Origin: Patescibacteria group bacterium
GTDB lineage: Bacteria; Patescibacteriota; Minisyncoccia; Phycocordibacterales; PALSA-1337
Direction: 5' to 3'
NCBI GenBank assembly: GCA_023487965.1
Contig: JAMDBV010000027.1
Span: 1-9,425, forward strand
Length of the DNA stretch: 9,425 nucleotides
Translations under genes and position numbers: made by a program
The notes under the pieces: model-generated
The model's input: the letters and a program-made list of their open reading frames with translations, nothing else
Told to the model about the DNA's origin: nothing
Database searches by the model: none
In this document: piece after piece, positions 2,231 to 8,720 of the stretch
Layout: each line of letters opens with the position of its first letter
How positions within the stretch are numbered: the stretch's first letter is position 1

Positions 2231-4621
2231 TCACTGCAGAGACTTGATCGCCGCCTCGATCTGATCCTTGTACAATGGGAAGTCTTCTTTCGCCTTTCTT
2301 AGAATTTCTATTGCTTGCCATTTCCTGCCGGCGGCTATCTCTACCTGTACCAACCCGGAAACGTAGTTGATATTGTTCTTATCTTTCTTCATCAAGTCCT
2401 GATATATACTTATCGCTTTGTCGAACTGTTTTATCGAAGCATAAACCGCCCCCATCTGTTCGATCTTGAATATGTCGGGATTGTCGCCGAACAATTCATG
2501 CGCTTTCGATTCTTGGCCGGAAAGAACAAGCGAAATGGCAAGCAATATTCGCGCGCCATCGTATGTTGTATCCAGATTGTATGCTTGTTCGAGCAAGTCA
2601 ACCGATTTTTCCAACTGCCCAGTGCTCAGATAACTCTGCGCCAATTCTAGATCTACAGTTTGCTTTCTCGGCGAGAGCAAGTGGGCTTTTTCGAGGAGTG
2701 GCAATGCCTGAGCGGACTGTCCGACCGCATTCATGAACATACCGCCCAAAACATACATACGCGCGTCTTTGGGTGCGGCCGCAATCTGATCCTCTATCGC
2801 TTTGTTAGCCAGTGAATAATAAGACATCTTGGTCGGTCCGGCATACTGTCGACCGGAAATGATGCCTCCGGCGCAGGACAGTATCTGTTCGCGAATCTCC
2901 TGATTGGCGACGTATGCGCCTACATCGAGAGCGCTATCGAACAGTGTCGCGTCAGGCGTTGTTTGCTGACACGAACGAAGCGCTGTGATAAGACGCGTAT
3001 TGGCATTCAGAGGACGTATCTGGAAGAAATACACAAGCACTATAAAGGCTATGATCGTTATCGGCGCCACAACGTATTCGGTCGATTCAACTGAAAATTC
3101 TCGTTTGCCGAACAGTACCGGATGATTCTCATTGTATCGATTGCGGATCGAGGCGATGAAAGCGAGTAAAGCGAAGAACAAAACATAGCTAGCCAAGTTA
3201 TCGAATACGAAGACATTGTGGATGGCGTAGCCGACAACGAGACCGGTCAGTATCACCTTCTCGGCCATGGTGAAATGGCTCTTTCTATGATGATCTTCTC
3301 TCGGCATTTTCCATATACCCAGAAGCAGAAGTACATACAAGGAAATATACGATACAAAGCCGACCAGACCACCGGCAACCAACCAGTCTAGATATACGCT
3401 ATGTGCTCGATCGAACCATTGCTCCTGCGACCACATTCTAGGATCATAATTTGCATTGAATATATAGTTGAAATTCTCTTGACCCCAACCGAGTATCGGC
3501 CTTTCTGTCCAACCTTTCAAGGCCATCGGCCAGATATAAGCGCGGGCTTGGGTTTTCGTATCTTCCCACGATATCGACGCCATGCGACGAAGCGTTTCAT
3601 TATTCTGGACAAAAGAGGCGTTACGGTTGAACCAGAACAATAGGCCCAGAATAATTATGCCGCCCAAAACACTCGCGCTTACGATCCTGGACTTCTTGTT
3701 GTGGGTTCCGGCCAGAATGGCGTACAGGAATAGTGCCAGCATGATACCACCGACGAGGCCGAGCAATGTTCCGCGAGTCGCTGTTTCGTAGAGCAAATAC
3801 GTGAAGAATATCGGCAAGATATAGAGCGGATATACGAGTACAAGTACCGTGAATACGAGCAGTCCGAATGTCACAAATATGAAAGTGAGCTTGTGGGCCA
3901 AATATAATGCGCTTACACCTTCGTATCCAGCAAAGTGCTGAAATAAGCTCGCAATGAGGACCAGAACAGCAATGCCGAAGAAAGAAACGATAAATGGCCA
4001 AACGGCACCAAAATCAACTTTGAAATTCCACCTGGCAACCTTGCGCTCGGCCAATAGATACAAAGCAATGCCGATATTGATCAGCATATAGACGGCCATA
4101 TATGCGGCGTTACCAAGAGTTGCATCGACACGCGTCGAACCTTGATGGATTTCAAAAGCACCCAGAATCTGACAGAGGCCGTACATACCGATGAAAAAAG
4201 CAACGCCGAGACTTGCATACATCCAACGATGCCATAACCTCTTGCCATCCTCGCCGGAAAAGAGCGATGTCGCCACAATGAAGAAAGCCCATAGATGCAC
4301 GATCGTTATCCAACCTTCCATACGTTCGAAGTTGGACCACATACTGCGGATAGGATTGGCGCCGAACAGGTCTGCAATGAGAGTCACAAAGGCGAATACC
4401 GTCACGCCTACGGTAATATAGTTTATCCTTGGTCTGTACTTGGCGTCAGCAAAGGCCAGAATGAGATACGAGCCAAAGGCGATCTCGACAAGCAATCTAA
4501 AGAGAAATGCCTTGCCGGTAATGAACGGGAAGAAGAATCCATTCATGACAATAAGTGGCACAATCGGAACCAGAAACAGGGCCATAATGCTTATAGACCT
4601 AGATATTTTCTTGATATACAT
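2231..4621 (-). CDS. O-antigen ligase family (Wzy_C) membrane protein with C-terminal TPR repeats
   Basis: A 796-residue membrane protein that probably transfers or polymerises lipid-linked glycans on the outer face of the cytoplasmic membrane. Many hydrophobic helices span about 12-300, 312-331, 415-435, 455-490 and 517-534. Family motifs are visible: an Arg-containing ATRGTLLGL (281-289) after a helix, GWGQENF (378-384), and DRAHSVYLDWLVAGGLVG (404-421) with the conserved His407 of the large periplasmic-type loop. From about 600 to 796 the chain is helical and TPR-like, for example ALPLLEKAHLLSP (639-651), KSVDLLEQAYNLD (672-684), KAISIYQDLMKKD (735-747) and QAIEILRKAKEDFP (769-782). The ATG at 4621 follows AAAGGAAAAT, a good Shine-Dalgarno sequence. 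The neighbouring glycan-export genes support the role. The acceptor is unknown: if the host is a candidate-phyla bacterium without lipopolysaccharide, it could be a protein, teichoic-like polymer or lipid. A polymerase or protein O-glycosyltransferase is possible. Confidence 0.85.
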   Translation of the reverse strand: MYIKKISRSISIMALFLVPIVPLIVMNGFFFPFITGKAFLFRLLVEIAFGSYLILAFADAKYRPRINYITVGVTVFAFVTLIADLFGANPIRSMWSNFERMEGWITIVHLWAFFIVATSLFSGEDGKRLWHRWMYASLGVAFFIGMYGLCQILGAFEIHQGSTRVDATLGNAAYMAVYMLINIGIALYLLAERKVARWNFKVDFGAVWPFIVSFFGIAVLVLIASLFQHFAGYEGVSALYLAHKLTFIFVTFGLLVFTVLVLVYPLYILPIFFTYLLYETATRGTLLGLVGGIMLALFLYAILAGTHNKKSRIVSASVLGGIIILGLLFWFNRNASFVQNNETLRRMASISWEDTKTQARAYIWPMALKGWTERPILGWGQENFNYIFNANYDPRMWSQEQWFDRAHSVYLDWLVAGGLVGFVSYISLYVLLLLGIWKMPREDHHRKSHFTMAEKVILTGLVVGYAIHNVFVFDNLASYVLFFALLAFIASIRNRYNENHPVLFGKREFSVESTEYVVAPITIIAFIVLVYFFQIRPLNANTRLITALRSCQQTTPDATLFDSALDVGAYVANQEIREQILSCAGGIISGRQYAGPTKMSYYSLANKAIEDQIAAAPKDARMYVLGGMFMNAVGQSAQALPLLEKAHLLSPRKQTVDLELAQSYLSTGQLEKSVDLLEQAYNLDTTYDGARILLAISLVLSGQESKAHELFGDNPDIFKIEQMGAVYASIKQFDKAISIYQDLMKKDKNNINYVSGLVQVEIAAGRKWQAIEILRKAKEDFPLYKDQIEAAIKSLQ

Positions 4622-4711: not shown

Positions 4712-4722
4712 ACTATAGCACA
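4712..4722 (-). promoter_or_regulatory. Second copy of extended -10 TGTGCTATAGT
   Basis: This 11-mer is identical to 2197-2187 on the - strand. It overlaps the final codons and the TAG stop of the kinase fusion gene. If it is active, transcription would begin near 4705 and give the ligase gene a leader of about 84 bases. The preceding -35 region is poor. Confidence 0.3.
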
Positions 4723-5804
4723 AACGGATTGCGAATATAAGGCTCTATAGCCTTTGTTCCACTCATCGTGGCTGCTGCTATGTCACGAGCTTTCCTGTTT
4801 TGGAATAAATACAATATATATCCACCATGCCCGCCGCCGAGATATTTCCATGCTTTACTTCCTTTCACTTTCGGTACTTCGTCCATTCCCTCTTTTATCT
4901 GAATCGCATAACTAAGTTTGATCGCCCGACACAGTTTCGAGAAATCTCCAGTTTTGACCGCATTCATAGCTATTTTGCCAGCGCGCAATATCATTTTGTA
5001 ATCACGTCTCTTATCAACAATATTCGGAGTTGAATGCGTCTTACCGCTCCAGAGTATCATCATGCGCCCGTTTAGCCATTCTGGGTCTGTCTTGAAATCG
5101 AGTATCGGTATCTTGCCGGATCGCCAGACACATAAACCAGTTTCTTCTATTATCGCCGGATCTTGCCAACCGACACCGAGGTTCAATTCAGATCGTGAAC
5201 CATTCTTCGCTTCAAGTATGGCAAATGCCGCCGAACCGCCAAGTCCCGCTCCCTTTTCGTATGGCCATTTATCCAGCGACACTAGTGGTGATATCGCACA
5301 ATTGACTATATACCCACCTTTTTTGGACAGTTTTGGAACATCGAGCCAACCACCCGCGAAATCAACCCTCAACGGCACTTGCGTTATGCCTTTGATGTTG
5401 TTACGGACCTGCGTCGTCGATGTTCTAGTTAATAAGTTACGTTTGGGAAGGATCACCAGCTCTATACTATATTTTTTGCAAAATTCTCTCTTTTTGTCTA
5501 TGTGTCTATCATCGTCAGTGACCGCTAGGATGTTCGGTTTAGTGGTCTTAATATGATCAACAAAATCAAATATCGGATGAGGATTTGAGCTCATGACAAC
5601 TTGATCGATATATTTGATTGATTCCAACAATTTCCGCTTATTATCTTCCGGCATAGATGGTTTGCGTCCTTTATACATCATCAGAACATCGTCGCTTGCA
5701 AAGCAGACGGTCAAATGATCTCCGAGCGCTTTGGCGTCCTCGAAAAACTGTATATGACCAGCATGGATGACGTCGTATGTGCCAGAGACAAAGACTCTTT
5801 TCAC
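4713..5804 (-). CDS. Fused cytidylyl/adenylyltransferase and GHMP-type sugar kinase
   Basis: A predicted cytoplasmic two-domain enzyme for making an activated sugar. Counting from a GTG at 5804 (363 residues), the first domain (about 2-135) is a HxGH nucleotidylyltransferase of the TagD/RfaE-C type. It has FVSGTYDVIHAGH (5-17, with His14 and His17 binding nucleotide) and RTSTTQVR (127-134). The second domain (about 143-363) is a GHMP kinase resembling the COG2605/fucokinase group: PLRVDFAGGW (144-153), GAGLGGSAA (185-193, ATP loop), GWQDP (212-216, with the likely catalytic Asp) and LGGGHGGY (322-329). Only about 30 residues separate the first two kinase motifs, far fewer than usual. I chose GTG 5804 because TagD-like proteins begin at this point. 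In-frame ATGs at 5849 and 5885 add 15 or 27 residues without family resemblance, and the latter overlaps the divergent gene's start. The sugar and the nucleotide are not predictable. The neighbourhood points to glycan precursor supply. Confidence 0.78.
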   Translation of the reverse strand: MKRVFVSGTYDVIHAGHIQFFEDAKALGDHLTVCFASDDVLMMYKGRKPSMPEDNKRKLLESIKYIDQVVMSSNPHPIFDFVDHIKTTKPNILAVTDDDRHIDKKREFCKKYSIELVILPKRNLLTRTSTTQVRNNIKGITQVPLRVDFAGGWLDVPKLSKKGGYIVNCAISPLVSLDKWPYEKGAGLGGSAAFAILEAKNGSRSELNLGVGWQDPAIIEETGLCVWRSGKIPILDFKTDPEWLNGRMMILWSGKTHSTPNIVDKRRDYKMILRAGKIAMNAVKTGDFSKLCRAIKLSYAIQIKEGMDEVPKVKGSKAWKYLGGGHGGYILYLFQNRKARDIAAATMSGTKAIEPYIRNPFVL

Positions 5805-5883: not shown

Positions 5884-6708
5884 ATGTCTAAGGCGTTAAT
5901 TGTTATAAGGCCAAAGAAAATATTCCGCCTATCTGATCTAAAGGAAATTTGGAATTACAGAGAACTTCTATATTTTTTTAGTTGGAGGGATCTGAAGGTG
6001 CGATACAAGCAAACCGTCGTCGGTATCTTGTGGGCAATAATACAACCATTTATTACAATGGTTGTATTCAGTGTCTTCTTTGGTAGTCTAGCCAAGGTTC
6101 CGTCCGACAACGTTCCTTACCCCATCTTTGTCTACACGGGTCTTCTATTCTGGCAATTTTTCTCAGATTCTCTGGGTGATGTAAGTAATTCTCTTATCGG
6201 CAATCAATCAATCATTACCAAAGTTTATTTTCCGAGACTGATTTTGCCAATATCATCTGTCATAACAAAATTAGTTGATTTATCAATAGGTGCAGTCATT
6301 CTGGCCGGGCTTATGATTTACTATCACATCACTCCTACCGTTACGAGTCTTGCGGTAATACCCGTCGTCTTGATTATAACTTTTATGTCAGCTGTCGGCC
6401 TTGGCCTTATATTGGCAGCAACAAATGTAAAATATCGAGACGTGCGCTATGCCCTACCATTTTTTATCCAACTTCTTATCTTTGTAACCCCTGTTATATA
6501 TCCCGCCTCTATTGCCGGTAAATATTCAAAAATCCTAGCATTGAATCCAATGATGGGTGTGGTACAGAATGCTCGTGCAGTTTTGCTTGGTACCACAGAA
6601 GTCAATTGGACTCTCATTGCCACTTCTCTTATCGGTTGCATAGTGCTTCTATTTGTCGGTATATACGTATTCAAAAAGGTCGAGAGGTATTTCGCAGATA
6701 TTGTCTAA
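5884..6708 (+). CDS. wzm: ABC-2 type polysaccharide export permease (Wzm/TagG-like)
   Basis: A 274-residue integral membrane permease that, with the next gene's ATPase, exports a lipid-linked polysaccharide across the cytoplasmic membrane. The length is normal for Wzm/TagG/RfbA. Visible family marks are RDLKVRYKQTVVGILWAIIQ (35-54, amphipathic entry into the first helix), NVKYRDVRYALPFFIQ (181-196), TPVIYP (202-207) and LNPM (220-223). About six hydrophobic helices lie near 47-68, 79-93, 127-147, 153-180, 190-207 and 245-263. The ATG at 5884 has no clear Shine-Dalgarno sequence, and no better start is present. Seven bases separate its stop from the wzt start, so the two are one operon. A perfect 12-bp hairpin lies inside the coding region at 6039-6068. 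Confidence 0.95.
   Translation: MSKALIVIRPKKIFRLSDLKEIWNYRELLYFFSWRDLKVRYKQTVVGILWAIIQPFITMVVFSVFFGSLAKVPSDNVPYPIFVYTGLLFWQFFSDSLGDVSNSLIGNQSIITKVYFPRLILPISSVITKLVDLSIGAVILAGLMIYYHITPTVTSLAVIPVVLIITFMSAVGLGLILAATNVKYRDVRYALPFFIQLLIFVTPVIYPASIAGKYSKILALNPMMGVVQNARAVLLGTTEVNWTLIATSLIGCIVLLFVGIYVFKKVERYFADIV
6039..6068 (+). repeat. Perfect 12-bp inverted repeat inside wzm
   Basis: AATACAACCATT (6039-6050) and its exact reverse complement (6057-6068) enclose a 6-base loop. It lies in the codons for the first transmembrane segment, about 155 bases after the start codon. The mRNA could form a stable stem-loop here. It has no T-run, so it is not an intrinsic terminator. Confidence 0.7.
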
Positions 6709-6715
6709 ATAATAC

Positions 6716-7978
6716 ATGGAACCAATCATTGAGATCAAAAATATAGGCAAGAAATATAACATCATCCATGAACGTGGTGGCTATGTCACATTTAGAGACG
6801 TGATTACAAACGTTATCATGCGACCCCTCTTATTTGCCAAAACCAAAGCTATGCGAGCGGTTGGTTTGGAAAAGAAGGAAGAGTATTGGGCACTCAGAGA
6901 CATATCCTTGAATGTGAATCGCGGTGAAGTCATCGGCATAATCGGCGCAAACGGTGCCGGCAAATCGACCCTGCTGAAGATACTATCGCAAATAACCCCT
7001 CCCACAGAAGGAGAAATAGTCATTCGTGGCACGATAGGTTCTCTACTGGAAGTTGGTACAGGATTTCATCCAGAACTCACCGGTCGAGAAAATATATTTT
7101 TGAACGGGGCTATATTGGGTATGACTCGTGCCGAAATCGCCAAGAAATTTGATGCCATCGTTGAATTCGCCGGTATCTCCAAATTCATAGACACGCCAGT
7201 CAAACGTTATTCAAGTGGTATGTATGTACGTCTAGCCTTTTCAGTCGCCGCTCATATGGAACCAGACATACTCCTAGTAGATGAAGTCTTGGCAGTTGGT
7301 GACGCCGAATTTCAGAAGAAATGTTTGGGCAAGATGGAGGAGGTCACAGAAAAGAATGGCCGAACAATAATTTTTGTGAGTCATAATATGGGTGCTATCG
7401 AACAGTTATGCGATCGTTCAATCTTATTGAAAAATGGACGAATATTAAGAAGTGGTCCAACAAGAGAGATTGTCTCTTTTTACATGAATAATGATAAAAA
7501 TTTAAAATCAGTCATAGAATATCCGCAAGCAACCTCAACCAAAGGTGTCTCGATAAAAAAGGTTTCTATTCTTGATGACCATGGTAACCCGTCATCAAAT
7601 TTATCTACAACAAATGAATTTTCATTTGAAATTGAATATGAGGTATTCCAAGAAACCTCAGGAGTTATGCTAAATTGCATTATATATAGTGAAGGTGAAA
7701 TTCTTTTAAATTGGTCAGATGCAGATTCTCACGGAAAATTGATCACTTATGATACTGGAATATATAAAACAAAAGTAACCATACCCTCTTTACTATTAAA
7801 TAATGGTTTTTATTATGCAGAAGTTTCAATCAAAAGACCCGGGATTGAATTCTTAGACAGAAAGCAAAATATTTCCTTTGAAATGAAATCTGAAAATGAT
7901 CCCAGAAATGAAATATATAACAACCAGATACCAGGAAAAATCATTCCTCCTTTAAAATCTACTACCCAAAAGATATAA
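6716..7978 (+). CDS. wzt: Polysaccharide ABC transporter ATP-binding protein with C-terminal substrate-recognition domain (Wzt-like)
   Basis: The ATPase partner of the Wzm-like permease, 420 residues, cytoplasmic at the membrane. The nucleotide-binding domain (about 1-255) has Walker A GANGAGKST (77-85), the Wzt-type EVGTGFHPELTGREN (112-126) in place of a standard Q-loop region, signature YSSGM (165-169), Walker B ILLVDEVLAVGD (185-196) and the H-loop His223 (VSHNM). Residues about 265-420 form an added beta-rich region (for example FSFEIEYEVF) that fits the Wzt C-terminal carbohydrate-binding domain. In characterised Wzt proteins this domain reads the modified chain terminus. The ATPase part is about 50% G+C while the C-terminal part falls to about a third, suggesting the recognition module was exchanged. 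The gene follows wzm by 7 bases, and its TAA is immediately followed by the next gene's ATG. Assignment of the C-terminal domain is by position and composition, so it is less certain than the ATPase. Confidence 0.93.
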   Translation: MEPIIEIKNIGKKYNIIHERGGYVTFRDVITNVIMRPLLFAKTKAMRAVGLEKKEEYWALRDISLNVNRGEVIGIIGANGAGKSTLLKILSQITPPTEGEIVIRGTIGSLLEVGTGFHPELTGRENIFLNGAILGMTRAEIAKKFDAIVEFAGISKFIDTPVKRYSSGMYVRLAFSVAAHMEPDILLVDEVLAVGDAEFQKKCLGKMEEVTEKNGRTIIFVSHNMGAIEQLCDRSILLKNGRILRSGPTREIVSFYMNNDKNLKSVIEYPQATSTKGVSIKKVSILDDHGNPSSNLSTTNEFSFEIEYEVFQETSGVMLNCIIYSEGEILLNWSDADSHGKLITYDTGIYKTKVTIPSLLLNNGFYYAEVSIKRPGIEFLDRKQNISFEMKSENDPRNEIYNNQIPGKIIPPLKSTTQKI

Positions 7979-8720
7979 ATGATTAAAAAGGTTAAAAAAT
8001 TACTTAGATCGACTGTATTAAAGTTATCAGGCTTTGATTTAAGTTCATTAAGAACGCAAGTTACCGATGATTTCGTGGATCAAAAAAAAATATTGCATGG
8101 ACGTAATGTAATCACAATTTTTGACGTTGGGGCCAACGTTGGACAAACTACAAAAAAATACAGGAAGCTGTTTCCCAAAGCAACTATTTACGGATTTGAA
8201 CCATATCCATCATATTTTTCATGAATACGCTAAAGATTTTAGCGCCGATAAAAGGATAAAACCGTTCAACATTGCACTGTCTAACAACAACGGCAAATCA
8301 TTGTTTTATATAAATGATAACCATTATACAAATTCATTAATGCCTATAAATAAGAATAATGGTAAAGACACTCTTTCAAACATTACTATAGATAAAATTG
8401 ACGTAACAACAGAAACTATTGATTCTTTCTGCTTTAGAAATGGCATAGATCAGATCGATATATTGAAGATCGACGTTCAAGGGGGAGAATTACTTGTCCT
8501 TGAGGGAGCAAAAGATAAACTAAAAAATGGCGAGGTAACGCTTATATACACCGAGGTTGAATTTTCCCCTCTTTACGTCAATCAACCTCTATTTAACGAT
8601 ATAGAAAAATATTTGCTAGAATTCGGTTTTAAGTTAAATAAGATATATTATGAAAAAAATAATGTCTCAGGAAAATTTATATCAGGAAATGCGATATTCA
8701 CAAAAGAGTTACTTAAATAA
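7979..8720 (+). pseudogene. FkbM-family SAM-dependent methyltransferase, interrupted by a one-base frameshift
   Basis: Two overlapping frames join into one 246-residue FkbM-type methyltransferase, which would O-methylate a sugar or similar substrate. Frame one (from the ATG at 7979) gives the SAM-binding motif TIFDVGANVGQTTK (46-59) and YGFEPYPSYF (71-80), then Ser and a TGA at 8222-8224. The other frame continues as HEYAKDFSADKRIKPFNIAL and later DILKIDVQGGELLVLEGA (160-177), the second FkbM hallmark. Removing one T from the T5 run at 8215-8219 restores a continuous protein. This may be a sequencing or assembly error, a real inactivating mutation, or homopolymer slippage. The start abuts the wzt stop with no gap. 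The gene is very AT-rich (14 of 60 G+C at 8641-8700). The second frame alone has an ATG at 8121, but that is an out-of-frame artefact of the first half. Confidence 0.85.

Follow-up and report, generated by a model that had tools for sequence, protein, structure and literature searches.

The 9,425-nucleotide stretch analysed here (the window) comprises forward-strand positions 1 to 9,425 of contig JAMDBV010000027.1 from a Patescibacteria group bacterium (assembly GCA_023487965.1), and it carries an intact gene, hereafter F (4713..5804, minus strand), that joins an HxGH nucleotidyltransferase to a GHMP kinase of about 220 residues. We give a probability of roughly two in three to F being a two-step sugar-activating enzyme that turns a free sugar into a sugar-1-phosphate and then into a nucleoside diphosphate (NDP)-sugar, with a fucokinase-like sugar site. 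The C-terminal miniature kinase would phosphorylate the free sugar on its anomeric (C1) hydroxyl, the N-terminal HxGH domain would couple the sugar-1-phosphate to a nucleotide, and the resulting NDP-sugar would pass to a glycosyltransferase. We infer this order of reactions and the phosphorylation at C1; a surface glycan is the likely destination of the activated sugar.

Architecture of the fusion protein

The reading frame of F runs without an internal stop, and the folds of both halves were predicted with confidence. The transferase half matches PF01467 at 45.5 bits (gathering score 21) and carries the HxGH motif, being of this type and not an FKP-type pyrophosphorylase domain. Its predicted fold resembles that of the glycerol-3-phosphate cytidylyltransferase TagD (root-mean-square deviation 1.7 over 126 residues), although TagD stands alone and takes glycerol-3-phosphate as its substrate. 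The rfaE_dom_II equivalog model (HldE domain II) scored 63.7 bits against a cut-off of 181.5 and the g3p_cytidyltrns model 55.5 bits against 165.4; the HldE-type and cytidylyltransferase scores thus lie close together and both far under the cut-off, and NF008454 aligns solely with this half. In collections of phage and plasmid records nothing matched F over 80% of its length; the matches listed (15 of 43 records in one collection, 15 of 53 in the other) span 27-40% of it, all in the transferase half. One relative, P0073 (498 amino acids), has two tandem HxGH transferase domains ahead of the compact kinase.

The kinase half contains all three motifs of the GHMP superfamily (motif 1, the glycine-rich P-loop and GxGxGG), and its predicted structure shows the two-domain GHMP fold. 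An initial annotation, made from the DNA letters alone, had read an HxGH transferase and a compact GHMP kinase in one protein, and this reading is borne out by PF01467, by the three motifs and by the predicted folds. The ATP loop and the GWQDP and GGGHGG motifs that it had noted are indeed present, and structure prediction of the kinase half, proposed there as a check, returned a GHMP fold with confidence. Among NCBIfam models only that for fucokinase/FKP picks up the kinase half, by a weak match at motif 1.

Conservation of the compact kinase

The protein search retrieved 2632 relatives of F at E <= 1e-3, and the 120 listed among them serve here as the database relatives; PF01467 was found in 119 of these and a GHMP Pfam domain in none. 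Scanning genomes with two peptide patterns gave 340 loci encoding an F relative, the best 80 of which were retained, and F was recovered by a simple gene caller in 72 of the 80. Together with 42 viral loci these make up the family alignment of 234 rows. The spacing between motif 1 and the P-loop, measured in one alignment, is 31 residues in 120/120 database relatives, 72/72 genome loci and 38 of the 41 viral copies measured, the three viral exceptions having 29, 30 and 40 residues. A pattern-based count found the same distance in all 69 genome loci that matched both motifs (3/72 were unmatched by the pattern). This constancy of spacing across relatives indicates that the F family, which as yet carries no name, is conserved and that F is not a damaged gene. 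The earlier estimate of a kinase of about 220 residues with some 30 residues between the two motifs is confirmed.

Longer forms were sought with a profile of the compact kinase in 14 F-bearing genomes at E <= 1, which retrieved F in each and a single further match of 13 bits. An additional viral copy, L229, shares 36% identity and carries GLGTSAA; its segment, roughly 40 residues long when counted by eye, makes it a mild intermediate. A longer kinase in relatives, which had been named as a finding that would speak for a deletion, did not appear: among the relatives examined there is no full-length version, the longest viral spacing being 40.

The residues expected to act in catalysis and sugar binding are nearly invariant. 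R173 is kept in 120 database, 72 genome and 41 viral rows (one gap), W180 in the same numbers (233/234 overall, one gap), D182 in 119, 72 and 41, S218 in 119, 71 and 42, and each of E233, Q241 and D242 in 120, 72 and 42. Just before the P-loop, W207 is present in 120/120 database, 72/72 genome and 39/42 viral sequences, and Y209 is likewise almost invariant.

The compact kinase also occurs alone, without the transferase, on phage contigs (L170:7959-8771, L171 and L228:5980-6762), and the L170 copy lies where the fusion is found in the related contigs L168 and L172. The existence of kinases of about 220 amino acids with their own starts, one of which was modelled confidently (pLDDT 92, pTM 0.91), points to the kinase being an independent unit.

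Sugar site and adenine pocket

For comparison we used three full-length kinases from F-bearing genomes (329-337 amino acids as cut), which we call HddA-like. Between motif 1 and the P-loop they have 80-82 residues vs 31 in F, between the P-loop and GxQD 39 vs 19, and between GxQD and GxGxGG 131-135 vs 107. Solved members of the GHMP superfamily among the matches listed (50 entries in each of two listings) have at least 285 residues, and the viral structures of BFVD gave no match to the compact kinase at E <= 0.001.

What the shortening may remove can be judged from two enzymes with published contacts. In FKP, the L-fucokinase/GDP-fucose pyrophosphorylase of Bacteroides fragilis, the sugar is contacted by W599, D601, T602, Q761 and D762, with R592 near O1; the E751A and D762A variants have undetectable activity, and the modelled ATP base touches D644, M645, P666, I669 and L722, the P-loop lying at 712-720 (PMC11982464). 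In the crystal structure of Aquifex IspE, with motif 1 at 9-14 and motif 2 at 87-98, the adenine lies among residues 53-85 plus 89, 96 and 99 (PMC2655357). Aligning motif 1 and matching the remaining residues by motif position, FKP R592, W599, D601, Q761, D762 and E751 correspond to R173, W180, D182, Q241, D242 and E233 of F; four of the five FKP sugar residues are thus kept, T602 being replaced by V183.

Judged from these correspondences, the sugar and phosphate sites of the kinase half look intact. Since most of the base contacts described for IspE (crystal) and FKP (model) lie in the segment that F mostly lacks, what appears to be missing is the canonical adenine pocket and not the sugar site. 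The initial annotation had taken the lost stretch for the substrate loop, but it is not chiefly that: the published sugar contacts belong to motif 1 and to the loop with GxQD, both kept in F, whereas those to the ATP base are mostly lost. With this segment mostly missing, binding of the phosphate donor would fall chiefly to the P-loop or else to a novel surface around W207/Y209, two residues that could form a new base platform.

Proposed function and its alternatives

That the W-D-Q-D set known from FKP is conserved points to a sugar of the fucose or D-arabinose type as the substrate. A one-protein route of sugar activation, as first proposed for this gene, is also what we find to be the most likely role on the sequence evidence. 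A search of the window's genome (about 74% complete) with GHMP_kinases_N gave nothing at E <= 1e-5, so F may be the only GHMP-type kinase there.

Several observations weigh against two-step sugar activation. The kinase half escapes the curated GHMP models of Pfam, with no match up to E 1 for F and none up to E 0.01 for P0121 (a stand-alone kinase), P0134 and the kinase of L228; this is a matter of model reach and not of biology. The counterpart of FKP E751 in F is a guess: MAFFT did not align E233 to the Glu preceding GxQD in the HddA-like kinases, and the distance from the Glu to the catalytic Asp, counted by eye, is 9 residues in F vs 12 in those three. A kinase that lacks most of the pocket segment might be weak or altered, and the literature search found no report of activity for any member of the family. 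HldE kinase, GmhA and gmd were tested as pathway partners and none accompanies F everywhere. In many loci no glycan partner is apparent; a tyrosyl-tRNA synthetase lies within two genes of F in 16 of the 72 genome loci, a housekeeping place (L016, L019-L021, L037, L038, L072, L080 and others).

It is tempting to speculate, although we hold it doubtful, that the compact kinase takes its phosphate from a base-free donor, pyrophosphate (PPi), and, in the fusion, reuses the PPi that the transferase half sets free. Sugar and PPi would then yield sugar-1-phosphate and phosphate, and sugar-1-phosphate with a nucleoside triphosphate (NTP) would yield NDP-sugar and PPi, so that one NTP would pay for the whole activation. 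This idea comes solely from the missing pocket segment and the fusion; no paper joining 'GHMP kinase' with 'pyrophosphate-dependent' was found in the openly licensed literature.

The missing adenine-pocket segment would also fit a kinase half that is catalytically dead and controls the transferase half by sensing sugar or phosphate. We consider this unlikely, because the catalytic Asp, the invariant Glu, the P-loop and the sugar residues are almost invariant in the 234 rows and a kinase that occurs without a transferase has nothing to regulate in cis. Quite unlikely, too, is a polyol or amino alcohol as the substrate, with the transferase making a CDP-alcohol as glycerol-3-phosphate or ethanolamine-phosphate cytidylyltransferases do, given that the kinase retains the residues (W, D, QD) that mark FKP as an anomeric sugar kinase.

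Substitution of F for HldE in a heptose route, with heptose 7-phosphate being phosphorylated at C1 and then nucleotidylated, is still less probable. Of 31 F-bearing genomes, some of them incomplete, 12 had GmhA at more than 100 bits and 16 matched it at E <= 1e-10; the 15 unmatched genomes include the window's own and that of Akkermansia glycaniphila Pyt. HldE kinase was matched in 10 of 30 (the window's genome was outside that search). As neither is a regular companion of F, the heptose route was rejected as its general role. The GDP-fucose pathway was rejected as an obligate partner: gmd was found over the cut-off in 20/31 F-bearing genomes and in 0/6 of the Patescibacteria searched, and at E <= 1e-30 it had no match in the window's genome, G145, G146, G147 or G157, G166 giving one match below the cut-off. 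Finally, a local deletion, frameshift or assembly artefact, which a draft genome of 61 contigs (74% complete) with a second gene that looks frame-broken and one contig end that looks chimeric might invite, is already refuted by the identical spacing in the database relatives and genome loci and by the uninterrupted frame, and its probability is practically negligible.

Genomic context

In the window F is flanked by genes for a Wzm/Wzt exporter and an O-antigen ligase-type protein (Table 1), in agreement with the glycan-export setting first suggested for it, and FkbM methyltransferases come after the exporter. In 5/72 genome loci, all with Patescibacteria titles, F has an O-antigen ligase-type cluster no more than two genes away. 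A WecG/TagA/CpsF-type cluster (representative PF03808) directly follows F in 12/72, and a cluster of NDP-sugar short-chain dehydrogenases/reductases, whose members include gmd and GDP-fucose synthase, is found within two genes upstream in 12/72. Among the viral loci a glycosyltransferase-like gene (representative PF13712) comes directly after F in 12/42, overlapping it by 10 nt in 11; these 12 loci hold 9 distinct F, or 5 at 95% identity. A fusion of a HAD-type phosphatase and NTP_transferase directly follows F in two viral loci (L140:9092-10468 and L135:9082-10458).

Other neighbours were also recorded. Just upstream of F, L142, L147, L148 and their kin carry a phage cassette of QueC-like, glutamine amidotransferase-like, GNAT and dGTP diphosphohydrolase-like proteins. 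Operon-like neighbours in genome loci include phosphoenolpyruvate mutase (2/99 scanned proteins) and thiamine pyrophosphate-enzyme domains (2/99), a hint that some loci have phosphonate genes near F. Within the window, an FkbM-type methyltransferase gene (7979-8720, plus strand) is seemingly split in two frames by a frameshift or sequencing error, into an 81-amino-acid open reading frame (ORF) at 7979-8224 that has no Pfam match and a 199-amino-acid one at 8121-8720 matching PF05050. At the contig end two SecA pieces face each other on opposite strands (SecA_DEAD 138-773, minus; SecA_PP_bind 3-341, plus), probably through a fold-back assembly error or an inversion.

Table 1. Gene F, its domains and motifs, and the flanking genes (positions in the window).
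Feature	Position	Strand	Remarks
Gene F, HxGH nucleotidyltransferase + compact GHMP kinase	4713..5804	-	363 aa from GTG 5804; ORF open to 5885
Nucleotidyltransferase domain, residues 28-165	5391..5804	-	
HxGH motif, H41-H44	5754..5765	-	H41 in 118/120, H44 in 119/120 database relatives
STT motif of transferase, residues 156-158	5412..5420	-	S156 in 120/120, T157 in 119/120 database relatives
Compact GHMP kinase domain, residues 170-390	4716..5378	-	
GHMP motif 1 RVDFAGGWLD, residues 173-182	5340..5369	-	R173, D175, W180 in 120/120 database relatives; aligned with FKP motif 1
Shortened motif 1 to P-loop segment, residues 183-213	5247..5339	-	31 residues
P-loop GLGGSAA, residues 214-220	5226..5246	-	Family alignment
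E233, candidate metal/phosphate-site Glu	5187..5189	-	234/234 rows; putative counterpart of FKP E751
GWQDP, residues 239-243	5157..5171	-	D242 catalytic-base candidate; Q241, D242 in 234/234 rows
GHMP motif 3 GGGHGG, residues 350-355	4821..4838	-	Family alignment
O-antigen ligase-type protein with tetratricopeptide (TPR) repeats, downstream of F, same strand	2231..4621	-	PF04932, PF14559
ABC-2 transporter membrane subunit (Wzm-like), divergent from F	5884..6708	+	PF01061
ABC transporter ATPase with Wzt C-terminal domain	6716..7978	+	PF00005, PF14524

Distribution in bacteria and phages

By their record titles, the retained loci belong to Patescibacteria, to many Verrucomicrobiota, and to some Bacteroidota, Planctomycetota, Myxococcota, Fibrobacterota, Kiritimatiellota and others; they include Akkermansia glycaniphila Pyt (L049) and a Coraliomargarita isolate (L016). 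In the family to which the A. glycaniphila genome belongs, 25/60 genomes gave a kinase match. In the window's phylum it is rare (1/379 sampled genomes, namely the window's own), and at least a transferase match was found in 75/145 genomes, the window's included. On a tree made by a quick LG method, with long viral branches that in part meet and used here for the placement of the window and a rough count of virus/bacterium changes, the window's F groups with five Patescibacteria rows (6 rows, node value 95); the virus label changes at least 5 times, of which well-supported branches force 3.

In IMG/VR, 43 viral contigs encode F, a piece of F or its kinase, an ORF being called in 42. Neighbour representatives from six of the viral contigs match PHROGs for a DnaB-like helicase, a single-strand binding protein, a UvsX-like recombinase, a DNA polymerase, a major head protein and a clamp loader, so that at least those six contigs are phage DNA; we call the viral group with such replication genes T4-like. 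Two other viral neighbour representatives, the glycosyltransferase among them, had no PHROG match.

Comparison with known enzymes

FKP also places a transferase first and a GHMP sugar-1-kinase second, its motif 1 is nearly the same (RIDMAGGWTD vs RVDFAGGWLD in F), and its sugar-binding W, D, Q and D and catalytic residues have counterparts in F. It differs in having another, much larger pyrophosphorylase, a kinase of about 360 residues and a long segment between motif 1 and the P-loop with the modelled base contacts D644, M645, P666 and I669. The zebrafish glucuronokinase/putative UDP-GlcA pyrophosphorylase (PMC3938481) has an N-terminal transferase and a C-terminal GHMP sugar-1-kinase as well, but the former is of the GT-A type and the latter has 357 residues. 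The GHMP heptokinases of the HddA/WcbL type, unlike F, stand alone, and the three examined are of full length with the long segment.

HldE has a PfkB-type kinase placed first. Like F it couples an HxGH-type transferase to an anomeric kinase, whereas the kinase of F is of the GHMP type and placed second. The novelty first claimed for the architecture therefore holds in part: the order of transferase and GHMP kinase was already known from FKP and the zebrafish enzyme, and what is new in F is the HxGH partner together with the miniature kinase. Neither the HxGH and GHMP kinase pairing, which the initial annotation had envisaged might already be characterized, nor a GHMP kinase this small was found reported in the openly licensed literature.

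The F family adds kinases of about 220 residues to the GHMP superfamily and raises the question of what the adenine pocket is needed for. If the proposed activity is true, a protein of 363 residues would do an FKP-type job, for which FKP has about 950, and it could be useful for making NDP-sugars. In that case F could also account for the sugar supply of glycosyltransferases in several bacterial phyla and in some phages.
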